Virus record (IMG/VR): IMGVR_UViG_3300032676_001083
Coordinates: 1 to 41,275 of that record
Length of the DNA: 41,275 nucleotides
Strand: one strand, 5' to 3'
Source of the DNA: a virus
Shown piece by piece: positions 2,405 to 40,794 of the stretch. The position numbers were made by a program, and so were the translations under genes. The stretch's first letter is position 1, and every line of letters begins with the position of its first letter. The notes under the pieces are model-generated. The model was not told the origin of the DNA, ran no database searches, and was given only the letters and a program-made list of their open reading frames with translations.

Positions 2405-2679
2405 TTTAACGCTCCTAAACTTCTGAGTTGATCGGTTCGGCCTAGCCTCGCCAGTTCACGGGTCTGCCACATCAACTCAAAGAGATTGCGAACACAATCG
2501 CCGTCCTCTCTGGAGTTTCCAGTTGCGGCAAAGCCAAGGCGACAGTTAAGTCCATAGTCACGCACGCCGACAGAGATCATGAACTTACCATCGTGGATCT
2601 CGAACGTCATCTCAGGTGCCCAACTACTGGGCCTTGGAAAGATTGGCACGATGTCGCTTGGAAGTTCCCACTTAGGCAT
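2401..2679 (-). CDS. Hypothetical protein after portal
   Basis: 92 residues, not recognised. The N-terminal half looks beta-rich (MTFEIHDGKFMISVGVRDYG), the C-terminal half helical (DCVRNLFELMWQTRELARL). It begins 8 bases before the portal stop and ends overlapping the next start, so it belongs to the head operon. No signal peptide or membrane segment is visible. Confidence 0.7.
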   Translation of the reverse strand: MPKWELPSDIVPIFPRPSSWAPEMTFEIHDGKFMISVGVRDYGLNCRLGFAATGNSREDGDCVRNLFELMWQTRELARLGRTDQLRSLGALK

Positions 2680-4948
2680 TTGCGTTCTCCTGTTGAGTCA
2701 TCGCCTGTAGGCCCGCAATGCCGGAGGCGTGGGCGTGGTCCTTGTCCTGCATACCCGCCTCGTGTGTACGCTGGATCGCTGCTTGTTCGCTGTCTGTGTT
2801 GTTCTTAGCCCCGGCCTTCGCCAGATCGGAACCGATCTTCTGTTGGGCGCTACGCTGGTTGATCTGGGCGATTTCAAGATGGGATTGCCGATCAGCATCG
2901 CGCTCCTGCGATTCGGTCAGCATCTCAGTGGCGCGGAACTGACGTTCAGTCTGCTTCTCTTGAAGGTTCGCCTGTGCTTCTGCCCCTATCGCCTGCGCCT
3001 CAACCAATGCCTGCTGAGTCTTCGCCTGCGTCAACGCCGCCGTGGCTTGGGCCTGTTGTGTCTTAGCGGCGGTCAACTGCGGGTCGTCGCCCTTGCCGGG
3101 GGGCGACTGACTCATCGCAGCCTTGGCCTGGTCGATTTCGTCCTGGCTGGCAAGGACACCCTCCGGGTCGGGGATGCCGACCATCCGCATGAACCGCAAC
3201 GCCGTATCGCGTTCGTGGAAAAGATAGGGAGCAGTCTTCGCCAGTTCCATCATCGACCACGCCACCGCAATCCGCTGGACCTGCGAGGCGGTGTTGGGGT
3301 CGGCCATCGGCACCAGTTCGCTATTGTCCAACGCCGACAAGAACTCATCTTCTTCCCATTGCCGGGCTGGCTTTGGGTTGAAGCGCCATAAAGCTCCGGG
3401 GTCTTCGCGGAACCGCTGCTTCAATAGCCGAAACTCTTCGGCCTGACTGCGGTGCAGTCCTTTGAAAACGCCCTTGATCGGCTTCAGGGCTTGCTCGATC
3501 TGGGCAACCATGGTGCCGACCGGCATGTTGGCAGCCCCTTCGGAAAGCGGCACCGACGCCTCGCCGCCCAACGCCCGTCCAGCCTCCTCGATGTGCTGAA
3601 TAAACTGCATAAAACCAGCATCGGGAGACTTGTACGGCATGTTCGATACGACTTCACCGATCGGCTTGCCACCGGTTTTGATCGGGACGCCGCCTCCCGG
3701 CGGGACGCGGAACTGGTTAGTGATCTGTTTGCCGACATCATCCGAATATAGGAATCCCGGGAAGTTGGCAAACATCCCGGCGTCGATAAACTCTCGAAAT
3801 GCAGCGGTCAAAGCCCGAACCGTATTACCGAGAACGTGGACTAGACCAAGGGCGTAGAAGCCAAGGGCGTTAATATAGAAATACGGAACAATCTCTTCGC
3901 GCGGAAGTTTCAGTTCATCGGTTTCATCCCAGTTTCTATAGATAGCCAGAATTTGCCGGCTATCAAGATCGAGAACAATTCTGTATGGATTGAAGTCATC
4001 GTCCTCGATATCGCGCTCGGTGCAGCATTCATAGATGGTGTGGAGGTGGTCGGACGGCAGTTGCGAGTATGCAGTCAGACCGGCGGCTCTCGCCTCAGCT
4101 TCCTCCAATGGGTCTTGCTTCGCCACGGGCTGTCCAAGCTCGACATCCCGGTAAATCTTGGCTTTGACCATGCGACGCAGAATGTTGTGCCGCATCTTGA
4201 TCCGATGGGTAACACGCGCCGCATTACGCAGATCGGTGGCATTGTAGTCAACGATCAAGTCATTGACATCAATGGATTCCGATACCGGACGCTTGCGGAG
4301 AGGACAGTGATAGACCTTCTTGAACCCGCAGCCGAATAGTCCAACTCGGAACGCCATGCGGGTCGTATCTGGGTAGTACTCGCTGGCCGTCACGGTCAGG
4401 TAGTGGTTGAGATCAGACTGCAACGCCATTGCCAGATCGGCAGATGTGGCACCGGGGATTTCCAGATTCATCGGCGCCCCGGTCGGTGGCTCCGGGGTGT
4501 CGTCACGGACCTTGACCGGGCCATCGGCAGGAAGCAACTCAGCCACGAAGTCGGCCTGAAAGCGGATGGAGGATTGCAGCAATAGAGGATGACGGAATGT
4601 ACTGGTGCCCTCGACCGGAGCCGATGTGTCGTTGGCAGCGGAAGCGGCATCCTCGACCCTGGTGCCGAGCATTTCTACCGCTTTGCCGAGACTTTCGAGG
4701 TATTCGCGCCGGCTCATATCGTCGGCCTGAATCTCCCGCAGGAGATCATCGGCAAGCGCCGATAACTTGTTGAGGTCCAACGTATCGGCCAGATTGTCGC
4801 CGTGCTTGTCGGTCGCCGTTCGTTTCTGCCGCCAGTCCGTCCGAATGATGACACCGCCTTCGGGCGTGGAAATTTGGAGGCGCCCCTTGTCATCAAGGAC
4901 GCCTTCCATGCCGTCATCGGTCAGGATTTTGCGCGCCGCTTTTGCCAC
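2672..4948 (-). CDS. Portal protein
   Basis: 758 residues from the chosen start. This large portal type would form the dodecameric DNA gate at one capsid vertex and the docking site of the terminase. The central part (RHPLLLQSSIRFQADFVAEL, MAFRVGLFGCGFKKVYHCP, and later PYFYINALGFYALGLVHVLG) is typical of podovirus-like portals. The last 150 residues are Gln/Ala-rich helix (TQQAQATAALTQAKTQQALV), as in the barrel of long portals. It lies two small genes downstream of the large terminase. Start: GTG at 4948 has GAGG eight bases upstream and begins VAKAARKILTDDGM. A TTG at 5014 would give 780 residues but has no good ribosome-binding site. A strong promoter ends about 90 bases upstream of the GTG. 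Confidence 0.88.
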   Translation of the reverse strand: MAKAARKILTDDGMEGVLDDKGRLQISTPEGGVIIRTDWRQKRTATDKHGDNLADTLDLNKLSALADDLLREIQADDMSRREYLESLGKAVEMLGTRVEDAASAANDTSAPVEGTSTFRHPLLLQSSIRFQADFVAELLPADGPVKVRDDTPEPPTGAPMNLEIPGATSADLAMALQSDLNHYLTVTASEYYPDTTRMAFRVGLFGCGFKKVYHCPLRKRPVSESIDVNDLIVDYNATDLRNAARVTHRIKMRHNILRRMVKAKIYRDVELGQPVAKQDPLEEAEARAAGLTAYSQLPSDHLHTIYECCTERDIEDDDFNPYRIVLDLDSRQILAIYRNWDETDELKLPREEIVPYFYINALGFYALGLVHVLGNTVRALTAAFREFIDAGMFANFPGFLYSDDVGKQITNQFRVPPGGGVPIKTGGKPIGEVVSNMPYKSPDAGFMQFIQHIEEAGRALGGEASVPLSEGAANMPVGTMVAQIEQALKPIKGVFKGLHRSQAEEFRLLKQRFREDPGALWRFNPKPARQWEEDEFLSALDNSELVPMADPNTASQVQRIAVAWSMMELAKTAPYLFHERDTALRFMRMVGIPDPEGVLASQDEIDQAKAAMSQSPPGKGDDPQLTAAKTQQAQATAALTQAKTQQALVEAQAIGAEAQANLQEKQTERQFRATEMLTESQERDADRQSHLEIAQINQRSAQQKIGSDLAKAGAKNNTDSEQAAIQRTHEAGMQDKDHAHASGIAGLQAMTQQENANA

Positions 4949-5510: not shown

Positions 5511-7073
5511 TCACCCCGGATAAAGTGGTTTCGGCACGACCTGGTTGCGCGCCAGCATCGCCATGTCGTCGTCATGCCAACGTTTTTCCTGCTTACGGTA
5601 AAGTATCCCACGCTCTCGGAAGTGACGAAGGCACTGGGAAAGAGCGTCAACGCGATCATCATGGCGCCCCCGGGGGAAGATAGCTGCTTCGTCGATCATA
5701 TCTTCTGCCCAGGTTGTATTTGGGCGCCATATCAATCCTTCTTCGAACAGGTGCGTTATTGCATGGACGCGCGCCACCTTTCCTCCGGCCGGTGTCGGAT
5801 CAACGAGTATTGTCCCCCAATCCGACCTTTGGTAGTTTCGCAGAATTTCCTGTTGCACCGAATGGCCGTTGGCCTTGTTCTCGATAAGCAGGGTATCGAC
5901 GCGGTACTTGTCGCAGGTCTTGGCGACACGCTGGACAAGATCGTGCAGCTTCAGGTGGTCGATCCAGACGTTCATCAGCATGACGGCCTGCTGACCAGTC
6001 TGCGGCACTTCCCAGATTCCCATGACGACAAGGGCCGAGGGATCATTCTCCGTCTTGTCGGTCAAGGCACAGTCCAGCGAAGCGGCAACATACGAGAATG
6101 GCGGAAACTTCAGCTTGACCGCCGTGGGGTCTTCATCCGGTTTTCCGTAAAGTTTCCACCAGTCCCGCTTGATGATGGCGCCCCCTCGGGGCTCCGGGTG
6201 TTGCTGAAACTGGCCGGCCCAGGCGTAGTCGGTCATGGTCTCCTTGAGTTGAGCCGAAGCCTCGGCGCTGAAGCGTTCCGGCCAAAACAAGTCACCCTTG
6301 ATGGTGCGGGGGTCTTTCCATCCGATCTGCGTTTCGCCACACGTCCAGTCGGGGTCATACTCCATCGGCACCATGACGTAGCACCAGCGGTCTCCACCGC
6401 GGGTCGGGTCGAGCAGGAACCCGGTGGCGTCCTCCTGATTAGTGCGTTGCTGGATCAGGACAATGGCCGACTTCTCAAGGTCATTCAACCGGGTCGGCAT
6501 AACTTCCGCCAGCCACCTATTAGTATTGTCTCGTATAACCTTACTTTCAGATTCGTTGATATTGTTTGGATCGTCTATGATGAAAATGTCTCCGCGCATT
6601 CCGGTAATAGAACCACCTACCGATGACGCGACCTTCCACCCCGTCTTGTCGTTTGCCAGACTTATCTTGCTGTCGTTCGCCTTGAAGAGATGTCCCCAGT
6701 ACTTTTGATACTCATGGGATGAAATAAGCACTCCCATGCGGCCGTTGTCGCGCTCGGTCAAGGTTTGAGAATACGCCGCCGTCAGGAATCGCGTGCTGGG
6801 TTTGTTCTTCGGCCCCCATACCCAGGCGGGCCAAAAAACGTTTGTAATTAAACTTTTCGTTGAGCCAGGAGGACAATTCCCAATGATCCTGGTAACGTCA
6901 CCATTAGTTACCGCCTCCAGGTGCCGGCACCACGACCGAGGCCACCAGCCGTCAGCGAACGGCGTCGATGGTTCCAGCACCGGCCACATCAGCCGGACGA
7001 AGTAGTGCAGCGATTCCTCGGCGCGGCTGATCCACATCGACTCGGCTTGGGCAGCGGTCAAGGGGAGGAGCAT
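5511..7073 (-). CDS. terL: Terminase large subunit (TerL)
   Basis: 520 residues. It is the packaging motor ATPase and nuclease, which acts at the portal to pump and cut concatemeric DNA. The ATPase domain shows a Walker A variant CPPGSTKS (residues 67-74), Walker B IFIIDDP (163-169) and a coupling-type segment IVLIQQRTNQED. The RNase H-like nuclease domain shows SLDCALTDK with Asp334, LLIENK with Glu398, and HDDRVDALSQ with Asp472/473/476 as acidic metal ligands. Length is normal for the family. It starts on the base after the stop of the preceding gene. All expected catalytic residues appear present. Confidence 0.95.
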   Translation of the reverse strand: MLLPLTAAQAESMWISRAEESLHYFVRLMWPVLEPSTPFADGWWPRSWCRHLEAVTNGDVTRIIGNCPPGSTKSLITNVFWPAWVWGPKNKPSTRFLTAAYSQTLTERDNGRMGVLISSHEYQKYWGHLFKANDSKISLANDKTGWKVASSVGGSITGMRGDIFIIDDPNNINESESKVIRDNTNRWLAEVMPTRLNDLEKSAIVLIQQRTNQEDATGFLLDPTRGGDRWCYVMVPMEYDPDWTCGETQIGWKDPRTIKGDLFWPERFSAEASAQLKETMTDYAWAGQFQQHPEPRGGAIIKRDWWKLYGKPDEDPTAVKLKFPPFSYVAASLDCALTDKTENDPSALVVMGIWEVPQTGQQAVMLMNVWIDHLKLHDLVQRVAKTCDKYRVDTLLIENKANGHSVQQEILRNYQRSDWGTILVDPTPAGGKVARVHAITHLFEEGLIWRPNTTWAEDMIDEAAIFPRGRHDDRVDALSQCLRHFRERGILYRKQEKRWHDDDMAMLARNQVVPKPLYPG

Positions 7074-15609: not shown

Positions 15610-16350
15610 ATGACCGAGAAATTCCAAATCATGAGCCGCTTCACCGGAGCGGTACAATTCGAGTGCGAGTTATCCGCCGAGATTGCCGGGGAGTCGTTTG
15701 GCATCCAGCTGGGATACGCCATCAAAGCAGCGATAAAATCACACAGCGACCTGCGCGGCAGCAACCTGAGCGACAGCGACCTGCGCGGCAGCAACCTGAT
15801 CTACAGCAACCTGATCTACAGCAACCTGAGCGGCAGCGACCTGAGCGGCAGCAACCTGAGCGGCAGCGACCTGCGCGGCAGCGACCTGCGCGGCAGCGAC
15901 CTGCGCGGCAGCAACCTGCGCGGCAGCAACCTGATCTACAGCGACCTGCGCGACAGCGACCTGCGCGGCAGCAACCTGATCTACAGCAACCTGAGCTACA
16001 GCAACCTGAGCGGCAGCGACCTGCGCGGCAGCAACCTGAGCGGCAGCAACCTGAGCTACAGCAACCTGAGCGGCAGCGACCTGCGCGACTCGAAATGGAC
16101 GGACGAAATCACTATCCAGCGCGCGCCGCTGCAAATATCCGGCCTCGCCTACCCGATCACGATCCTCGATCAGCACATGCAAATCGGCTGCGAGTTGCAC
16201 ACACTCGCCGAATGGGCCGCGTTCGACGATGAGCACATCGCGCGTATGGATGGTTTCAACGCGCGGCGATTCTGGAAAGCGCACAAGGCGGCGCTGCTGG
16301 CGTTGGCTGCTGGGGACGGGCGCGGTGTGGATGCGGAGGTTGCGGCATGA
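15610..16350 (+). CDS. Pentapeptide-repeat protein
   Basis: 246 residues, start with GGAGGAAAGAG upstream. Residues 1-45 are a non-repeat head (MSRFTGAVQFECELSAE; FGIQLGYAIKAAI). Residues 46-160 are 23 units of the type S(N/D)L(R/S/I)(G/Y/D), the A(D/N)LXX right-handed quadrilateral beta-helix fold. Residues 165-246 form a soluble tail (TILDQHMQIGCELHTLAEWAAFDDEHI). Similar repeat proteins can mimic DNA and inhibit gyrase (MfpA, Qnr), but many have no known role. The non-repeat tail suggests a fused partner-binding domain. The 4-base overlap with the next gene links them. Confidence 0.85.
   Translation: MTEKFQIMSRFTGAVQFECELSAEIAGESFGIQLGYAIKAAIKSHSDLRGSNLSDSDLRGSNLIYSNLIYSNLSGSDLSGSNLSGSDLRGSDLRGSDLRGSNLRGSNLIYSDLRDSDLRGSNLIYSNLSYSNLSGSDLRGSNLSGSNLSYSNLSGSDLRDSKWTDEITIQRAPLQISGLAYPITILDQHMQIGCELHTLAEWAAFDDEHIARMDGFNARRFWKAHKAALLALAAGDGRGVDAEVAA
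15745..16089 (+). repeat. 15-bp coding tandem repeats
   Basis: Twenty-three 15-base units (variants of AGCGACCTGCGCGGC and AGCAACCTGATCTAC) encode the pentapeptide helix. Several neighbouring units are identical, so the array is prone to gain or loss of units. Confidence 0.9.
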
Positions 16351-17823: not shown

Positions 17824-18230
17824 AGCAACGTAACCGTAAGAACCGTGAACGCCTTTGATGCATAAAACTTCCTAGCCTGTAGTTGGACGATCTGCGAATC
17901 GTCGCGCCACAAAACACCATTCAGAGCATCAAAAATTGTCTTCTGCAAATTGTCAATATCGGGACGACCTACCGGATACACTGAACCGCCAATTGCACCT
18001 GCCTGTTTTTTCTTTGGCCATGATGCCGGTATTTCCGAGGCAATAGCGATTTCCACCCTGAGCGCCCCTTCAAGGCAAAGCTGCCCGACCTGATCGAGCG
18101 CGCATTGCTTTACCCACGCCTCCGCGCTGACCGTTGCGGCCGGCGTGTAGGCATGACCGGACTTCATCACGCGGGGGCGAGCCTTGCCGCGCAGGGTGCC
18201 GGGTATCGTGACAGTTAGAGTTGCGCTCAT
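17820..18230 (-). CDS. rusA: RusA-family Holliday junction resolvase
   Basis: 136 residues, family-typical length. The family signature GRPDIDNLQKTIFDALNGVLWRDDSQIV is complete: Asp91 and Asp93 with Asp110/111 form the metal site and the following Asn/Lys residues contact DNA. RusA dimers cleave four-way junctions that arise in recombination or replication. It follows GapR with a 4-base overlap and lies downstream of the exonuclease and annealing-type genes, which makes a complete phage recombination set. Confidence 0.93.
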   Translation of the reverse strand: MSATLTVTIPGTLRGKARPRVMKSGHAYTPAATVSAEAWVKQCALDQVGQLCLEGALRVEIAIASEIPASWPKKKQAGAIGGSVYPVGRPDIDNLQKTIFDALNGVLWRDDSQIVQLQARKFYASKAFTVLTVTLL

Positions 18231-18529
18231 GGCCGCGCCGCATCCGCGAGAGGCGTGCCGAGAAGTTGACCCATCGCGCGGCGGTAGACATCGAGCAAGG
18301 TTTCGCGTTCCTCGACCTCGGCGGGGTCCATTTTCCGCTCCTTGATAAGCTGCCGAATCACCTTGACATCGAAACCAGCCGACTTAGCCTCCGCCATGAT
18401 GTCCTTGATATCGGCACCGATGCTCTTGCGTTCTTCCTCAAGCCGTTCTACGCGCTCGATGATGCTGCGAAGGCGACTTTCCGCGATGTCGCCCCACGCG
18501 GTGTTGTGGCCGGGTCCGGGTTCGGTCAT
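18227..18529 (-). CDS. gapR-like: GapR/DUF2312-family DNA-binding protein
   Basis: 100 residues. HNTAWGDIAESRLRSIIERVERLEEERKSIGADIKDIMAEAKSAGFDVKVIRQLIKERK is a close match in layout to GapR: long N-terminal helix, EAK.xGFD.K..R..I..RK segment, short C-terminal helices (ETLLDVYRRAMGQL). In Caulobacter GapR clamps over-twisted DNA ahead of forks and RNA polymerase and stimulates topoisomerases. The phage copy sits between a basic NUMOD-like protein and RusA, all overlapping by 4 bases. It may protect phage DNA during replication or compete with host GapR. The start is the ATG at 18529, as an upstream in-frame ATG has no ribosome-binding site. Confidence 0.9.
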   Translation of the reverse strand: MTEPGPGHNTAWGDIAESRLRSIIERVERLEEERKSIGADIKDIMAEAKSAGFDVKVIRQLIKERKMDPAEVEERETLLDVYRRAMGQLLGTPLADAARP

Positions 18530-24767: not shown

Positions 24768-25004
24768 ATGAACACGAAACCCATCCACCCGTTGCGGCGA
24801 TGGCTGTTTGAGCGCCAGATGACGCTGGACGTTTTCGCCGTGAAGTCGGGCATCTGCAAGAGTATGTTGAGCGAGATCATGACCCGGAAGAAGATGCCGT
24901 CCGCGCAGGCAATGCTCAAGATACGCAAGGCAACGCGCGGGGTGGTGACGCCGAACGATCTGGTCCCGGAGGCTCGGGCCGCAGCGAGGGAGAAAACACC
25001 ATGA
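24768..25004 (+). CDS. Cro/CI-like helix-turn-helix regulator
   Basis: 78 residues. HPLRRWLFERQMTLDVFAVKSGICKSMLSEIMTRKKMPSAQAMLKIRKATRGVVTPNDLVPEA has the five-helix HTH_XRE (Cro/C1) layout: LDVFAVKSG turn, recognition helix CKSMLSEIMTRK, closing APNDL-type segment (VVTPNDLV). It has no C-terminal cleavage domain, so it is of Cro type and size. It is divergent from the clamp-like gene across a palindrome. It opens the plus-strand regulator run and the next frame starts in a 4-base overlap. Confidence 0.85.
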   Translation: MNTKPIHPLRRWLFERQMTLDVFAVKSGICKSMLSEIMTRKKMPSAQAMLKIRKATRGVVTPNDLVPEARAAAREKTP

Positions 25005-25089: not shown

Positions 25090-25274
25090 ACACAAAGCCG
25101 GGCCTCTTTGCGGATCGCCCGGCCTGGCGCGCGGTGGATGCAACCCTCGGGTCGTTATCCGCGATGTGCGCGCGCCGCGTGGCTGGATGGGCCAGACGGG
25201 GGCGGGTGCGCTCCCTTCCCGCCGAACGTCGCATCCAGCCACGCAACTATTTGCCTATAGGGAGGGATAAATGA
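25086..25274 (+). CDS. Small hypothetical protein
   Basis: About 62 residues in the frame NTKPGLFADRPAWRAVDATLGSLSAMCARRVAGWARRGRV. Third-position GC is about 70 percent, higher than the overlapping frame that starts at ATG 25001. It ends AAATGA in a 4-base overlap with the next gene. The start codon is unclear: TTG 25086 or GTG 25074. It is not recognised. Confidence 0.45.
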   Translation: MNTKPGLFADRPAWRAVDATLGSLSAMCARRVAGWARRGRVRSLPAERRIQPRNYLPIGRDK

Positions 25275-25516
25275 CTGAAGAAGAACTCGCCTACCTCGCC
25301 CTGACGCCGGAAACCCGCTCCCGCCGGCTGGCCCTGCGTGAACGCAAGATGGCGGCTGCGCAGGCCCGGTTCCAAGCCACGGTTGACGATAGCACATATG
25401 AAGCCGCCTGCCGCGCCGCGGCACCGAAGGCCATTCAGGAGGCGCTGTATCCGCCGGGCGTTGACGAGCCGGTGGGGCGGGTTGTGGCACGAAGAAAACA
25501 CGAGGGGATGGCGTGA
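25271..25516 (+). CDS. Small hypothetical protein
   Basis: 81 residues, AGGGAGG seven bases before ATG. Charged helical protein (TEEELAYLALTPETRSRRLALRERKMAAAQARF), C-terminal basic tail (RVVARRKHEGMA). It is not recognised and lies in the regulator run. Confidence 0.7.
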   Translation: MTEEELAYLALTPETRSRRLALRERKMAAAQARFQATVDDSTYEAACRAAAPKAIQEALYPPGVDEPVGRVVARRKHEGMA

Positions 25517-25776
25517 TGGCAACCAAGATCAATGCCGTGCAGTTAGCGTGTCTCGAATGCCTCCACGCAAAGAGCCATCCTCACGGTGAGATGTGCATTC
25601 CGTTCGCGCCCATTGCGATCTATACTAGTCTTCCTCGCGCCGAGGTTCGCCGCGCGGTTCGGTTCCTCGCGCGCAAGGGCTTGGCGGAATTTCACAGCGG
25701 ACTGTCAACCGAAGACGGCGACTTTGCTGGGGCCGGCTATTGCATTACGCCCGCCGGCATAGCGGAGTTTCCGTGA
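25516..25776 (+). CDS. Winged-helix-like small protein
   Basis: 86 residues. NAVQLACLECLHAKSHPHGEMCIPFAPIAIYTSLPRAEVRRAVRFLARKGLAEFHSGLSTEDGDFAGAGYCITPAGIAEF has winged-helix spacing: helix SLPRAEVRRAVRFLARKGL followed by a wing and ITPAG closing strand. It is likely a DNA-binding regulator. ATG 25516 shares its A with the preceding stop (TGATG). The GTG three bases upstream is an alternative. Confidence 0.65.
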   Translation: MATKINAVQLACLECLHAKSHPHGEMCIPFAPIAIYTSLPRAEVRRAVRFLARKGLAEFHSGLSTEDGDFAGAGYCITPAGIAEFP

Positions 25777-26324
25777 TGCCCGCCGCTCATCATTACCCGC
25801 AGTCGCATTGGTCCGCCGAGCGAGACGCCGCGTTCGCCCCAATGTGGAAGGACGGCTTAGACTGGCCGGCCATCATTGAGGCCCTTAATACCATCCCCGG
25901 CCCGCGCCCGATTACTGACCGGAAAACGCTGGCGAAACGCGCCGAAGTGCTGGGCATCAAGCGACCGGCTTGGTATCTGACGCTGATCCGGCAGCGCATT
26001 TCGGCGGCAGGAAACGCGGTGCAGGCGGCGATGCGGAAGTCTGCACCGCCGAAGCCACCGAGGCCCAAACACGGCTACCGCACCGGCGGCACCCGCCACG
26101 CGCTGCCGGCGGGACATGCGATGACGGCGCTGGTGACGAAGATGGTGGTGTCGGAGTTGCCGCTTTCGAGTCGGCGGACATGCCAGTTTATTTCTGGCGA
26201 GCCTTGGCGGCACGAGTTCTGCGGGGCGCCGTCAGTGGTCGGCCTGTCGTGGTGCCCGATGCACGCCGAGGTGGTGTTTTCGAATTGGCCGGAGGTCAGG
26301 TGGCGGTTGGAGTGTCGGACATGA
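25776..26324 (+). CDS. gcrA-like: GcrA-like cell-cycle transcription regulator
   Basis: 182 residues. The N-terminal part HWSAERDAAFAPMWKDGLDWPAIIEAL, then DRKTLAKRAEVLGIKRPAW follows the GcrA order W..E....L...W..G.S...IA......T...V..KA..LGL. Residues 75-120 are a basic Pro-rich linker. The C-terminus RRTCQFISGEPWRHEFCGAPSVVGLSWCPMHAEVVF keeps the GcrA signature with Cys136, Cys149, Cys160 and His163. In Caulobacter GcrA binds sigma70 and CcrM-methylated GANTC promoters of cell-cycle genes. The phage copy could redirect host RNA polymerase. It starts in a TGATG overlap and ends ATGA into another HTH gene. Confidence 0.8.
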   Translation: MPAAHHYPQSHWSAERDAAFAPMWKDGLDWPAIIEALNTIPGPRPITDRKTLAKRAEVLGIKRPAWYLTLIRQRISAAGNAVQAAMRKSAPPKPPRPKHGYRTGGTRHALPAGHAMTALVTKMVVSELPLSSRRTCQFISGEPWRHEFCGAPSVVGLSWCPMHAEVVFSNWPEVRWRLECRT

Positions 26325-34986: not shown

Positions 34987-37900
34987 TCATGGGACCGCCG
35001 CTCTATCCCGTTGGTATCGCTGGACTTGCTCTGGTGTCGCCTGCCGCATAAACGCCTGAACCTGCCTGCCGCCGGCGTGCGGGTTCTGGGCGTTCTTGAT
35101 GATGGCGCGTCGCTCTCCTGGGGGGATTTTCAGCACATCCATCGCCGCTATCGCATCATCCATTTTGCCGTCCTTGATTTGCTGACGGATGCCAGGAAGC
35201 GCGGCCCGTACTTGGTAATCTTCCGACTTCTTCGCGGCAAATCTCTCGCCTTCCGCCGGCCCACCCGGGAAGCCGTGCGAGACACTGAAGCCAAGACCGC
35301 CGCCCACAATCTGCGCCGCCTCAAAGGCGCCCCCTTGGCCGGTGAATATCTTGTAGATCGCGCTCAAAGCAGTCTTTGGCACCACGCTAGACGCCGCCAC
35401 CTGGGCAAGGTTGGAAACCGCCTGTCCAAGCGCGACTGGCATCGGTGCGTATGGATCGTATATCTGGCGCCCAGGCGACATCTCATTTGTTAGCAGCGTA
35501 ACTGGCGCCCGGATAAAGGGAGACTCAATGCCAAGCATAGTCTGACGAAGCTGGGTAAAGTAATCACTCGTGTCTTCCATCGTCTTGCCAACCACCGGCC
35601 GCACATAAACTCCGGTTCCGTCTTTGTTGTATCCAACAAGGATGCGATTACCCTTGCCTGGCTCGTTTTCGTGCGTAGGCAGAAGCGACTCCACCATACT
35701 GAACGGGTTCATATTTTCTAGCGGGTGCGCCATCAGACGCTCGCCCTCTTCCATGAACCGACGTAGATAGCCCTTCCCTTCGTCGTCCAGAGAGTTACCT
35801 TGCAGCATGACATTTGCGGCGCTCTGAAGCGTAGCCTTGCCGACGTAGTACATGGCAAGATCGGTCAGAAGGATGCCCATTGCGGCGCGTCGAGCGACGT
35901 TGTTGACGCCCATCATGGCCTGCACGCCACGGTCGCGCATGATCTGGGCCTGCACATCCTTCGGCATCCCAACAATCGCATCCTTGAGAGCCGCCATCGT
36001 GCCGAATCGGTAAGACCGAGAGAACAGCAGCGTGTTGGCAACCTTACGTGCGCCATCCGACATAGCCTCGCGGGGCAACGAACCAGCAAACACGTTCCCG
36101 AAGTTAGTAGCGACACGGGTGGCGCTTTGTGGATCAACACCTTTTGCGATCAACTCTCGTTCGTACCGCAGCGCCAATCCAACCTGAATATCGGCAACCC
36201 GGTTCCATAGCAACGTGTTGTGGGCAAAATCACCGGCTCGGTCGATTGCCGCCTTGACCGCCGTTCCAGCGCGCTCATCGAACAGACCTGGAACAAAAGA
36301 CAGCACCTGAGAAGTCCACGAGCGGCCTGGCGTGAGTATCGGGGACTGCTCAAAACTCTCGATATCCTGCGCCCCGAAGTTGCGACCGATTGGACGTAGA
36401 CCACCGAGGATTAGGCGCCGCATCGTGCCTGGATCACTCTTTGCCGCGTAGCCCTCGCGCATCCCTGCGACGAGGTTTGGCATAGCAGGGAAAGCGCGGC
36501 CGGCAATCACGCCAAGATGCGCAACCCCATACATGATCGAGGTCATCATGCGGCCCTTAAGGTCCATCAGGCCGTTGTAAATCGCTCCTGATTTGCCTCC
36601 CATGACTGCGCGCAGCGGACCTTCAAAGTCGCCACGAACATAGATAGGGCTTTTCTGGAAAATCGGCTTACCCTTGGCGTCGGTGCCTACGACATGGCTT
36701 TCCCAGAAGGCGGGATTCTCTTTGATAGTGAACCAATCAAAGCCATCGCCGCCTGGTATCTTGCGCGCAGCCGCTTCGGTTTCCTCGGTCGTTAGGTATT
36801 TCCGGTGCAGAAGTTGCGATGTGCTTGTTTTGAGATCGGCCCCGAATGGATTGAGAGGACGGCCGCCGCCAACGCCGCCAACCTGCACGGTCTGATCCCC
36901 CGATCGTTGCCCGGCTTCGCGGATGCGGTTGATGAGAATACGGCCCTGCGTAGCTTCTTGCAGCCGCATCGTCGCCATCATAAGGGTGCGGATATCCCTA
37001 ACAACACGCGCCCCTTCCGGTTCCCCAATGCCAACAACCATGCGCGGCACATAGGACGGAAGCGCCTCGATGTCGTGGACGCCAGCGGCCCTCGCTTGCT
37101 CAAAGGCAGCAACAGCGGTACGCTGAGTCGCATTCACCGCGGCGCGTTGGCGAGGCGGTAGTTGATCCAAGCCAACACCATCTGGGGATTTCCCACTTTG
37201 TAGCGCCACGCTCTCAGCATCCGCCCGCTCCCACATCTCCTTCAATTCGGCCGGCGTAAAGTTTTTGGTTGCCCAATCTATCGCCTGGGTGCCGTCGTGA
37301 CGAGCAAGCGTCTTGGCGTTCATGTAGTCTTTCGCCATCGCCTTCGCGGCATCCGCGCCGGTTGCCATCGGCACGGTCATCAACTTTACCTGCTCGCCAA
37401 AATCCAGCAGATGATTGACTGCGGCGCCCAAAGACGCGCCGATCCTGGGGATACGCTCTAGCCGAGACGCAAAGTCTGCGTCGTCCTTAACCGGAGCACC
37501 AAGCGGCATCTCGCCCTGCCCCTGCGCTCGGCGGGAGAACTTCGGAAGATCGTCCAAAGGCGACAAATAGCCATGAGGCGGCGGTGGGGTTTCTGGAGCA
37601 GCGGAAGGCGCTATTGCTCTTTTATCCCCCCGCATCACCGAGTCAAAAACATCATCCGCTGTCTTGAACCCCTCACCGCGCAGCCATTGGCCGACGCCCT
37701 TGAGGAAATTCAGCATCTTGTAATACGGCGCAGGGGCGTTCACCCCGCGCGCCAAGGCATCCTCACCCATGCGGGCAATGGCTTCCTCGCGGAGTTCGTT
37801 CTGCCCGTAGCCGCGCGATTCCAGATCGGCGCGGTTCGTGCCCTGTTTCAGCCAGCGATCGGCGCCGATTTCCAGTGCCCGACGTTCTCCGTTTCCGAGT

Positions 37901-40794
37901 AGCCCAAGAGCCGGGTCCATCAGAGCATGAATGCTTTCGTGGAACAACTTCGCCGGCAGCAATCCATGTGGCGTGTCCAGCGCGAGGTCGATCAGACCGT
38001 GTGTGTAGCGCCCATCCGCCGTGCCGTCCTGGATGCGATCAACCAGATTAAGGCCAACCTTGTCCGGAAGGCCAATGGCGCGCATGATGCGTTGGGCGGC
38101 GTCCTGTAGCCGCGCCTTGGCTTCGGGGTCGATCTCGCGGGGGGCGGCATCGCCTTCGCGGCGAGCCAACAGTCCGGGTTGCTCGGTTTCCTTCTCCGCG
38201 AACAACCCCTCATTCGCCGGTTCCTGCCCGCTGCGTGGTCCGGCGGCATCGCGTGCTGCCTGCGCTTGGAGCGCCGTTGGCTCGGTGCCCAACAGGCCCA
38301 TCTGCCTCGGGTCGGTGCGGATCGTCGGCTCCGGTTCGGGTTTCGGAATGGCCTCGCGTTCTGGTTCCCCAAACAACGACGGGCCGGTTGACGGGGGCAG
38401 TGGGGCGCGGCGGGAGAGTAGTGAGTTTCTTTCTCCAAAGTCTGGAGGCTCTTCTATGGGTGGGGGTTCGCGCATTGGGATCGCGGCGAAACGCGCTTTC
38501 ATCGCCGCCAAGTCTTCTGGTGTATACGAGTGAGATAGCGGACGGATTGGAGGAAGCTGCCCTACCTCGCCTGCTTCGCCCGCAGGTCCGTTGCCGCGAA
38601 TCTCAGTGCCATGTTGTACGCCTTCGTCCGGCCCTCGCTGCTCAAGCGCCCGAACGGAGGCGAGAAACCGGGACGTGACCCCGGAGACGGATTTGCCGGC
38701 GGCAAGGTCGGCGGCTGCGGCGGTAAGGGCGTCCGAGACCGGGCCACGCTTGGTTCCGTCAACTGTGAGTTGGGTAAGGAGTCGGTCATTCTCTGATTTC
38801 CCCGCAAGGTTGCCTTCGCGCGTCAGCACGTTGCCGGCGGCGGTTAATGTGTCTTCGCCGTTCAGGGCGCCCCGGAACACGGCCCCAGCACGGCGCAGCG
38901 TTTTCATGGCATTGTCGAGAACGCGAGCGCGCTGCGGGAACAACGAGGTCGCCACATCCTCGTCGCCGAACAGCGTTGTCTGCGCGCCCCGCAAGAATCC
39001 AGAATTGCGGGCATCCTGCACCATAATGCGGGCCTGCTCGGCGTTGTCGGGATGCTCTTTGGATAGCAGGTCCATCGTGGCGATTTGTTCGGCGGGATCG
39101 GCGATCATGGCACCGACGAATGACGCATAGGCGTCCGGCACGACGCCGGCTTCCACCATTCCGAAGGCGTCCGGTGACAGCGCCGCCAAGCCGCGCGCCT
39201 GAATTGCCAGCGCATTGTGCGGCGCAATATCCGGCAGGCTAAGATCGTCCGGCACCGCCGACTTGCCTCGCAGCACTTTGGCGAAATCCAGCGCCGTTCC
39301 GCTGCCCTCGGCGATGTTCTGATAGGCGCCGAGAACCCGCATGAAGTCGGGGGTATAACCATCGGCCTCACGGAATATCCGCGCCGGAACCTGCACATCA
39401 GGTTGCCCAGCAGCCTTGGAATCTTGGGCAAGGATGGTGCGTTGATGCCCGTTGACGGGGCTGATCGTGCCGTCGTTCGCCTGCCATGCCGTGATGGGGT
39501 TGGTTAGAGTCTGATCCCACTTCGCGCCAGTCAGCGCGCCAGTTCCGCCGCGCTCATCTGATGCCTTGAACTGGAACAAGTCCGGTCGCAGCACCAGTTG
39601 GTCGGGGTCCAGCATCGTGTAGGGCGATTTGGACTCTGCTGACGCTGGGACCGACGCAGGAGGCGGCGCACCCAGCCCCACCTCGGTTACTGGCGCAGCC
39701 TCCCCCATCGGCGATGGGGGCTTCGGTGTCACCAGATCGGCAAGCTCTTTCTCGGCGGGAGGCGCGTTCGGGGGAACTTCTCCCGGAGGCGCAGGAGGCG
39801 GTGCTGCCGCTTCCTCAGATTCCGCCGCCGCCGCCTGCTCAGGTGTGCGCGGCGTATTAGCGGTCGGCGCTGTCTCGTCGAGCATATCCGCCACGCCCTG
39901 CCGTAATTCCGGCGAGGCCACGGGCGCGGCCTTGGCGCCCATGCCCCGAATGGCAGCGTATCCGGCAAGCGGAATGGCGGTGCTGACGGCAGACCCAAGA
40001 TACGTTCCCTCCATGCCTTCGGTAAGCGGTTTTCCTTGCTCCCAATTTTCTACGCCGCGCTCAGTCATGCCGATGCCTGGCTGCACGCCAAACGCTTGGA
40101 ACAAAAGACTCTTAACCGGCCCCTCGAAGAACTTGGCACCGAAGGCAGCCCATCCAGCGGCAGAGAACAACCCAGCTTGCCCGGCTTGAGCCAACGTTGC
40201 GTCCCACGCCTTGTTCGGATCGGCGTTCGGCTTCTGCATTTCGCGGGCGAAGATCGGCGTCAACTGACCGAGTGCCGTAGCGGCTCCGGCTGCTACTGCG
40301 CCACCAACAAGACCACCGCCCTCTGGTGCAATAGCCTCTCCAGCGATGCCGCCCGCGATGCCGGCACCGAGCGTCGATCCACTGGACGCCAGTTGGTACG
40401 TGATCTTGGGAAGCGCCTGACTGGGGTGCGCTATATCGCTAAGGGTAAGGGGCTGCTGGTAAGGTTGCGGTGCCTCGTCTGGTTGTTGCTGTGCCTTTCC
40501 TTGGAGGGTAGCCGGTAGTCCGGCGAGGTTACGAATGTCCTGCATGAAGCCCGATTTTGCCGCCTGCCCCATGTTGGACAGAAATCCCGGTTCCTCCGGC
40601 GGCAAATCCTCAGCCTGCGCCGGAGCGCCGTTCTTGTTGGTTGCGGCCGATGGCGCTCCTTTGGTTTGGTAATCAGCCCAAGGCCCATCCTTCGCTGTCG
40701 GCGATTGATACGCCGACCAAGGGCCGTCTCCGGAAGGGGCCGGAGCTTCCGGTTGACTTCCTTGGTCCTGATAATCAGCCCAAGGTCCGTCCAT
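34987..40794 (-). CDS. Giant polyvalent internal virion protein
   Basis: 1935 residues. The N-terminus carries three DGPW(A/S)xYQ motifs (residues 2-9, 24-31, 37-44). Residues 60-290 have Gly/Ala-rich hydrophobic stretches. Residues of about 395-520 are ParB/DdrB-like: LDPDQLVLRPDLFQF and PVNGHQRTILAQ (NGHQR 448-452). Residues 910-1010 contain a zinc-metallopeptidase-like LFHESIHAL (His952, Glu953, His956) with ELREEAIARMGED further on. The last 700 residues are mostly helical with some hydrophobic segments. Large proteins of this kind enter the host with phage DNA, as T7 gp16 does. No transglycosylase motif was seen. TAATG overlap with the gene upstream; convergent with the HNH gene. Confidence 0.8.
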   Translation of the reverse strand: MDGPWADYQDQGSQPEAPAPSGDGPWSAYQSPTAKDGPWADYQTKGAPSAATNKNGAPAQAEDLPPEEPGFLSNMGQAAKSGFMQDIRNLAGLPATLQGKAQQQPDEAPQPYQQPLTLSDIAHPSQALPKITYQLASSGSTLGAGIAGGIAGEAIAPEGGGLVGGAVAAGAATALGQLTPIFAREMQKPNADPNKAWDATLAQAGQAGLFSAAGWAAFGAKFFEGPVKSLLFQAFGVQPGIGMTERGVENWEQGKPLTEGMEGTYLGSAVSTAIPLAGYAAIRGMGAKAAPVASPELRQGVADMLDETAPTANTPRTPEQAAAAESEEAAAPPPAPPGEVPPNAPPAEKELADLVTPKPPSPMGEAAPVTEVGLGAPPPASVPASAESKSPYTMLDPDQLVLRPDLFQFKASDERGGTGALTGAKWDQTLTNPITAWQANDGTISPVNGHQRTILAQDSKAAGQPDVQVPARIFREADGYTPDFMRVLGAYQNIAEGSGTALDFAKVLRGKSAVPDDLSLPDIAPHNALAIQARGLAALSPDAFGMVEAGVVPDAYASFVGAMIADPAEQIATMDLLSKEHPDNAEQARIMVQDARNSGFLRGAQTTLFGDEDVATSLFPQRARVLDNAMKTLRRAGAVFRGALNGEDTLTAAGNVLTREGNLAGKSENDRLLTQLTVDGTKRGPVSDALTAAAADLAAGKSVSGVTSRFLASVRALEQRGPDEGVQHGTEIRGNGPAGEAGEVGQLPPIRPLSHSYTPEDLAAMKARFAAIPMREPPPIEEPPDFGERNSLLSRRAPLPPSTGPSLFGEPEREAIPKPEPEPTIRTDPRQMGLLGTEPTALQAQAARDAAGPRSGQEPANEGLFAEKETEQPGLLARREGDAAPREIDPEAKARLQDAAQRIMRAIGLPDKVGLNLVDRIQDGTADGRYTHGLIDLALDTPHGLLPAKLFHESIHALMDPALGLLGNGERRALEIGADRWLKQGTNRADLESRGYGQNELREEAIARMGEDALARGVNAPAPYYKMLNFLKGVGQWLRGEGFKTADDVFDSVMRGDKRAIAPSAAPETPPPPHGYLSPLDDLPKFSRRAQGQGEMPLGAPVKDDADFASRLERIPRIGASLGAAVNHLLDFGEQVKLMTVPMATGADAAKAMAKDYMNAKTLARHDGTQAIDWATKNFTPAELKEMWERADAESVALQSGKSPDGVGLDQLPPRQRAAVNATQRTAVAAFEQARAAGVHDIEALPSYVPRMVVGIGEPEGARVVRDIRTLMMATMRLQEATQGRILINRIREAGQRSGDQTVQVGGVGGGRPLNPFGADLKTSTSQLLHRKYLTTEETEAAARKIPGGDGFDWFTIKENPAFWESHVVGTDAKGKPIFQKSPIYVRGDFEGPLRAVMGGKSGAIYNGLMDLKGRMMTSIMYGVAHLGVIAGRAFPAMPNLVAGMREGYAAKSDPGTMRRLILGGLRPIGRNFGAQDIESFEQSPILTPGRSWTSQVLSFVPGLFDERAGTAVKAAIDRAGDFAHNTLLWNRVADIQVGLALRYERELIAKGVDPQSATRVATNFGNVFAGSLPREAMSDGARKVANTLLFSRSYRFGTMAALKDAIVGMPKDVQAQIMRDRGVQAMMGVNNVARRAAMGILLTDLAMYYVGKATLQSAANVMLQGNSLDDEGKGYLRRFMEEGERLMAHPLENMNPFSMVESLLPTHENEPGKGNRILVGYNKDGTGVYVRPVVGKTMEDTSDYFTQLRQTMLGIESPFIRAPVTLLTNEMSPGRQIYDPYAPMPVALGQAVSNLAQVAASSVVPKTALSAIYKIFTGQGGAFEAAQIVGGGLGFSVSHGFPGGPAEGERFAAKKSEDYQVRAALPGIRQQIKDGKMDDAIAAMDVLKIPPGERRAIIKNAQNPHAGGRQVQAFMRQATPEQVQRYQRDRAAVP

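Follow-up and report, generated by a model that had tools for sequence, protein, structure and literature searches.

The window, by which we mean the whole 41,275-base stretch of phage DNA analysed here, encodes at 25776-26324 (+) a protein of 182 amino acids whose sequence supports its assignment as a divergent phage member of the GcrA family. We consider it fairly likely that this protein is a phage sigma70 cofactor, which has kept the sigma-docking tail of GcrA and carries a head whose recognition sequence is different from methylated GANTC.

Results

The reading frame begins with an ATG at 25776, which overlaps the stop of the preceding gene and has the sequence GGAG about 8 nt upstream, and ends with a stop at 26322-26324. 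A phage GcrA-like gene had been proposed at this position from the sequence alone (the original prediction), and a profile search bore this out. The GcrA family of Pfam (PF07750) was the only Pfam family to match the protein, and aligned with residues 11-169 at E=1.9e-6 and 28.7 bits, narrowly exceeding the curated gathering cut-off of 26.9 bits. The match took in both domains, in order, and was the sole GcrA match in the 41,275-base record; a PHROGs search with the protein gave no match. A homolog of 163 amino acids, 58% identical to the window protein, was found in a 52.8-kb contig from a related phage (IMGVR_UViG_3300050015_000111, hereafter G003), and scored 34.9 bits against PF07750. Comparison of the two genes gave a dN/dS of ~0.40, the linker having the highest value (0.54), ahead of the tail (0.37) and the head (0.35); these ratios are rough because the synonymous divergence of the pair is ~1. 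The sequences nevertheless show that the pair is under purifying selection. Each of the two phages has a single copy of the Cys/His motif, at the gcrA-like gene. Taken with the G003 homolog and the dN/dS, this indicates that the resemblance to GcrA is greater than expected by chance.

The sequence identifies the record as that of a tailed phage, with genes for a terminase large subunit (5511-7073 (-); PF17289, 7.4e-9; 83% identical in G003) and an SU10-type portal protein (2672-4948 (-); PF23899, 1.1e-10), and it also encodes RusA, a prim-pol and a YqaJ exonuclease. The gcrA-like gene is the last in a run of three overlapping genes (25271-26324), downstream of a gene for a Cro/CI-type HTH repressor-like protein with which the regulatory region begins (24768-25004 (+); phrog_7241, transcriptional regulator, 4e-5). 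The first small gene of the run (25271-25516 (+)) had no Pfam match and its stop overlaps the start of the second (25516-25776 (+)), an 86-amino-acid gene with only a very weak HTH resemblance, whose stop in turn overlaps the gcrA-like start. The lysis/structural module adjoins the gcrA-like gene and is read in the opposite direction. Elsewhere in the window we noted a pentapeptide-repeat protein (15610-16350 (+); PF00805, 3.8e-36) and a protein of 1935 amino acids (34987-40794 (-)) that belongs to no Pfam family, has only a distant portal/unknown PHROG match, and is 87% identical to G003 in its N-terminal half. Pentapeptide-repeat proteins in phages may mimic DNA.

Apart from the terminase, G003 has most structural genes in common with the window. 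By gene order, ~18.7 kb of G003 (11.2-29.9 kb) is without a counterpart in the window, which indicates that the window is a phage fragment. A megablast of window bases 1-25000 against 50,697 named phages detected no near relative, a direct search for relatives of the GcrA-like protein in viral contigs and GTDB genomes yielded none, and a terminase scan of GTDB genomes revealed no prophage relative. Close to its gcrA-like gene, G003 carries a gene for a DNA methyltransferase-like protein with an SPPF motif (47507-48556 (-)), adjoining a helicase-like gene; no counterpart of the methyltransferase-like gene was found in the window. The window encodes a homolog of the nucleoid-associated protein GapR (18227-18529 (-); PF10073, 8.9e-31), as does G003, judged by sequence resemblance. 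GcrA and GapR are alphaproteobacterial protein families, and the host is therefore probably an alphaproteobacterium. Genes for GapR and GcrA-like proteins are adjacent in the phage segments L055 (GapR at ~1394-1546), L058 and L066, and lie close together in L049 (GapR at L049:4002-4313).

The C-terminal part of the protein (26181-26321 (+)) is homologous to the sigma-interacting domain (SID) of GcrA, and matched PF07750 as a fragment on its own (E=0.0015, profile positions 107-147). The Cys/His signature that had been noted in this region was confirmed as C136-x12-C149-G-x9-C160-x2-H163, and the C, G, C and H positions do not vary among 14 phage homologs. Since most of these homologs were picked up via the pattern CQWI[ED]G[ED], only C149, G150, C160 and H163, which lie outside that pattern, count as independent. 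Compared with Caulobacter crescentus GcrA (PDB 7ye1/7ye2, 5yix, 5yiu), which has the same C...CG...C..H tail, the spacing between the first two cysteines is 13 rather than 15, and the conserved Trp of the SID is replaced by Phe (CQFISGE), the sole exception among the 14 homologs. A model of the tail (pLDDT 81) had as its rank-1 match, among 350,542 PDB chains, 5yix_B, the GcrA SID in complex with sigma70 domain 2. The match is weak by itself (E 1.3, probability 0.44) but telling as the top rank; matches in BFVD include several phage proteins named 'GcrA cell cycle regulator'. HNH nucleases and other proteins with Cys/His sites were among further, weak fold matches of the model, and these, together with the marginal Pfam score, speak for a generic DNA-binding protein, made up of an HTH and a small zinc-type Cys/His part, that had come to resemble GcrA by convergence. 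We regard convergence as very improbable, given that the PF07750 match spans the two domains in their order, that the G003 relative scores higher, and that the closest solved structure is a GcrA SID. Thus, by sequence and model, the putative sigma-binding tail is well kept. In GcrA, residues 108-173 bind sigma2 and residues 1-45 bind methylated promoter DNA (PMC7403470), so that the original proposal to pair residues 1-65 with sigma70 domain 2 had the domains reversed and addressed the wrong end of the protein.

The N-terminal head (approximately residues 1-68; 25776-25980 (+)) was delineated from an AlphaFold model, alignment and HHalign. The model (pLDDT 76) contains three helices of an HTH fold (residues 14-25, 30-38 and 49-59) and a fourth helix. 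The W-[ST]-x-E-R start and helices 1-2 of GcrA are present, in agreement with the W/E pattern that had been predicted: the head opens with HWSAERDAAF, where C. crescentus GcrA has SWTDERVSTL (HWSAER against SWTDER). Residues 7-37 aligned with a profile of canonical GcrA heads (HHalign probability 89), but this alignment covers helices 1-2 only and does not extend to helix 3. In the sequence alignment a nine-residue loop, NTIPGPRPI, is inserted ahead of the third helix, and the reading helix has TDRKTLAKRAEVLGI in place of TRNAVIGKVHRLGL; the canonical recognition-helix signature RNAVIGKxHRLGL is absent, with DRKTLAKRAEVLGI and the inserted loop in its stead. Both the loop and the changed helix are common to the G003 relative. 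The head fragment alone had no match in Pfam, and a Foldseek search with the head model gave no convincing match, the known head structures of GcrA being absent from its results. Between the window and G003 the head is the best-kept part (68% identity; linker 36%), and this speaks for the importance of DNA binding.

Head and tail are joined by a basic linker (approximately residues 69-134; 25981-26178 (+)) of low conservation that is probably disordered. This had been described as longer and more basic than that of the host protein. Only the second part held: between the same landmarks the linker measures 74 residues in the window protein, 72 in C. crescentus GcrA and 80 in the homolog from phage phiCbK, while the net charges are +13, +5 and +17, respectively. 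The linker of the window protein is thus much more basic than that of C. crescentus GcrA, and resembles other phage copies in this respect.

We next consider GANTC sites. The window contains 61, compared with 88 +/- 7 in codon-preserving shuffles (z -3.75), and the same procedure revealed depletion in G003 (111 observed, 145 expected, z -3.4) and in a phiCbK segment (43 observed, 73 expected, z -5.0), although some control palindromes deviate too (for example CTNAG in G003, z -3.4). Such depletion fits phages of GANTC-methylating hosts. GANTC density was also very low, at 0.14-0.28 per kb, in the phage segments L053, L055, L058 and L066. None of the GANTC sites in the window is intergenic, where 5.2 would be expected (Poisson ~0.006, with our own gene calls on a 41-kb fragment); G003 has 11 against 10.4 expected, an average rate, and two of the 11 lie inside a tRNA gene. 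These two, located 5' of the gcrA-like operon of G003, were considered as a GcrA promoter and rejected, as they fall within a tRNA-Gln (TTG) gene (L047:11349-11423; G003 51349-51423) that lies directly upstream of the operon and is absent from the window. Neither the window nor G003 was enriched for GANTC at its likely own promoters, and GcrA sites likewise showed no positional signal in a published analysis of alphaproteobacterial phages (PMC9437464). A sigma70 promoter scan around the gcrA-like gene found none above chance and no target motif, and no CtrA boxes were found.

Because GANTC is depleted in the window and missing from its intergenic regions, the phage's own promoters are unlikely to be captured through methylated GANTC; recruitment of sigma70 to a different site is more likely. 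Of the proposed coupling of sigma70 to methylated GANTC promoters, the sigma-binding half is supported by the tail, and the GANTC half disagrees with the missing recognition-helix signature and the GANTC counts. The protein could still mimic GcrA functionally by binding methylated GANTC at host promoters, either imposing the GcrA (S-phase) programme or keeping replication genes on at any stage of the host cell cycle. Membership of the family speaks for such a role, which has been proposed for phiCbK gp222 (PMC3556154); a GANTC-methylating host would fit the depletion, and GANTC-free phage promoters would be irrelevant if the targets were those of the host. However, replacement of NAVIGKxHRLGL by TDRKTLAKRAEVLGI together with the inserted loop, both kept in G003, and the restriction of the alignment with the canonical head to helices 1-2 make this mimicry unlikely.

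Discussion

Phage-borne GcrA as such is not new. Homologs have been reported in phiCbK (gp222) and other Caulobacter phages since 2012 (PMC3556154), and GcrA is annotated in Agrobacterium phage Atu_ph08 (gp5; PMC6630229), brucellaphage Y17 (ORF4/5; PMC11836647), phiLM21-like prophages of Sinorhizobium (PMC12429752) and a coral phage (PMC11309003); these last four are akin to the window protein in being annotated as GcrA in alphaproteobacterial phages. Public viral proteins in BFVD already bear the name GcrA, and the cited papers contain no test of any phage copy. The window protein is a new divergent member; given the reports of phage copies since 2012, it adds modestly to the family and does not amount to a discovery. 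It shares domain order and a basic linker of similar length with C. crescentus GcrA, from which it differs in the recognition helix and the loop ahead of it. Like the window protein, phiCbK gp222 is a phage-borne GcrA-family protein of 182 amino acids with a basic linker; however, the two are only 23% identical, and the head and tail of gp222 are closer to host GcrA. The G003 protein (50566-51057 (-)) is alike in its head insertion, its reading helix and the site of its gene, which has replication genes on one side and the lysis/structural module on the other, but has a shorter linker and the canonical tail motif CQWIEGDP.

In the sigma70 cofactor reading that we favour, the Cys/His tail would dock on domain 2 of the main sigma factor of the host, the basic and flexible linker would join it to the N-terminal HTH head, and the head would tie the polymerase to specific DNA, aiding open-complex formation. 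Since the third helix departs from its GcrA counterpart and no GANTC site in the window is intergenic, the sequence recognised by the head is most likely not methylated GANTC. Its targets would probably be phage promoters, in a switch from early to late expression, as the gene ends the early/regulatory region and lies beside the late module; host promoters, or a subset of them, are the next possibility. Family, domain layout, conservation and GANTC depletion can be read from the sequence, whereas sigma binding, activation, target sites and timing are inferred.

During this analysis we observed that GcrA sigma-interacting domains also occur on their own in phages and plasmids, as proteins of 63-73 amino acids that are devoid of a DNA-binding head (L052:6126-6332, L060:7287-7493, L053:2397-2588, L064:4489-4710, L002:4055-4261 in phiKM1, where it is unannotated, and L004:1950-2156 in a Microvirga plasmid). 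The phiKM1 protein was considered as a homolog of the whole gene and rejected, as it matches the tail only. These tail-only proteins may be natural competitors of host GcrA, and theirs is the form expected of a pure competitor. By extension, the window protein might occupy sigma2 through its SID-like tail, block host GcrA and so shut down the host programme, with the head adding little. We find such a role distinctly improbable here because the head is so well conserved, being the most conserved part of the protein (68% identity, dN/dS 0.35). We also observed GcrA-type tails on differing N-terminal HTH parts in L055, L056, L062, L069, L071, L072, L073, L074 and L077, including two HTHs in L055 and L069 and three Myb-like repeats in L073. 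The pattern of varied heads and lone tails comes from a motif-selected sample rather than a systematic count; we found no description of it in the cited literature, which is not proof of novelty.

Tentatively, and with more doubt than the cofactor role itself, we suggest that the GcrA tail may be a modular device for sigma70 appropriation in phages. Its head would be swapped or re-tuned (the window, L055, L056, L062, L069, L071-L074 and L077) or dropped (the tail-only proteins), bringing host polymerase to phage-specific sites or blocking host GcrA, with no dependence on GANTC methylation. The combination of a kept sigma tail with a changed DNA-binding head would provide a clean test case for separating sigma capture from the reading of methylation. 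Should head swapping prove common among phages, it would constitute an alphaproteobacterial counterpart of the sigma appropriation by AsiA/MotA of phage T4.
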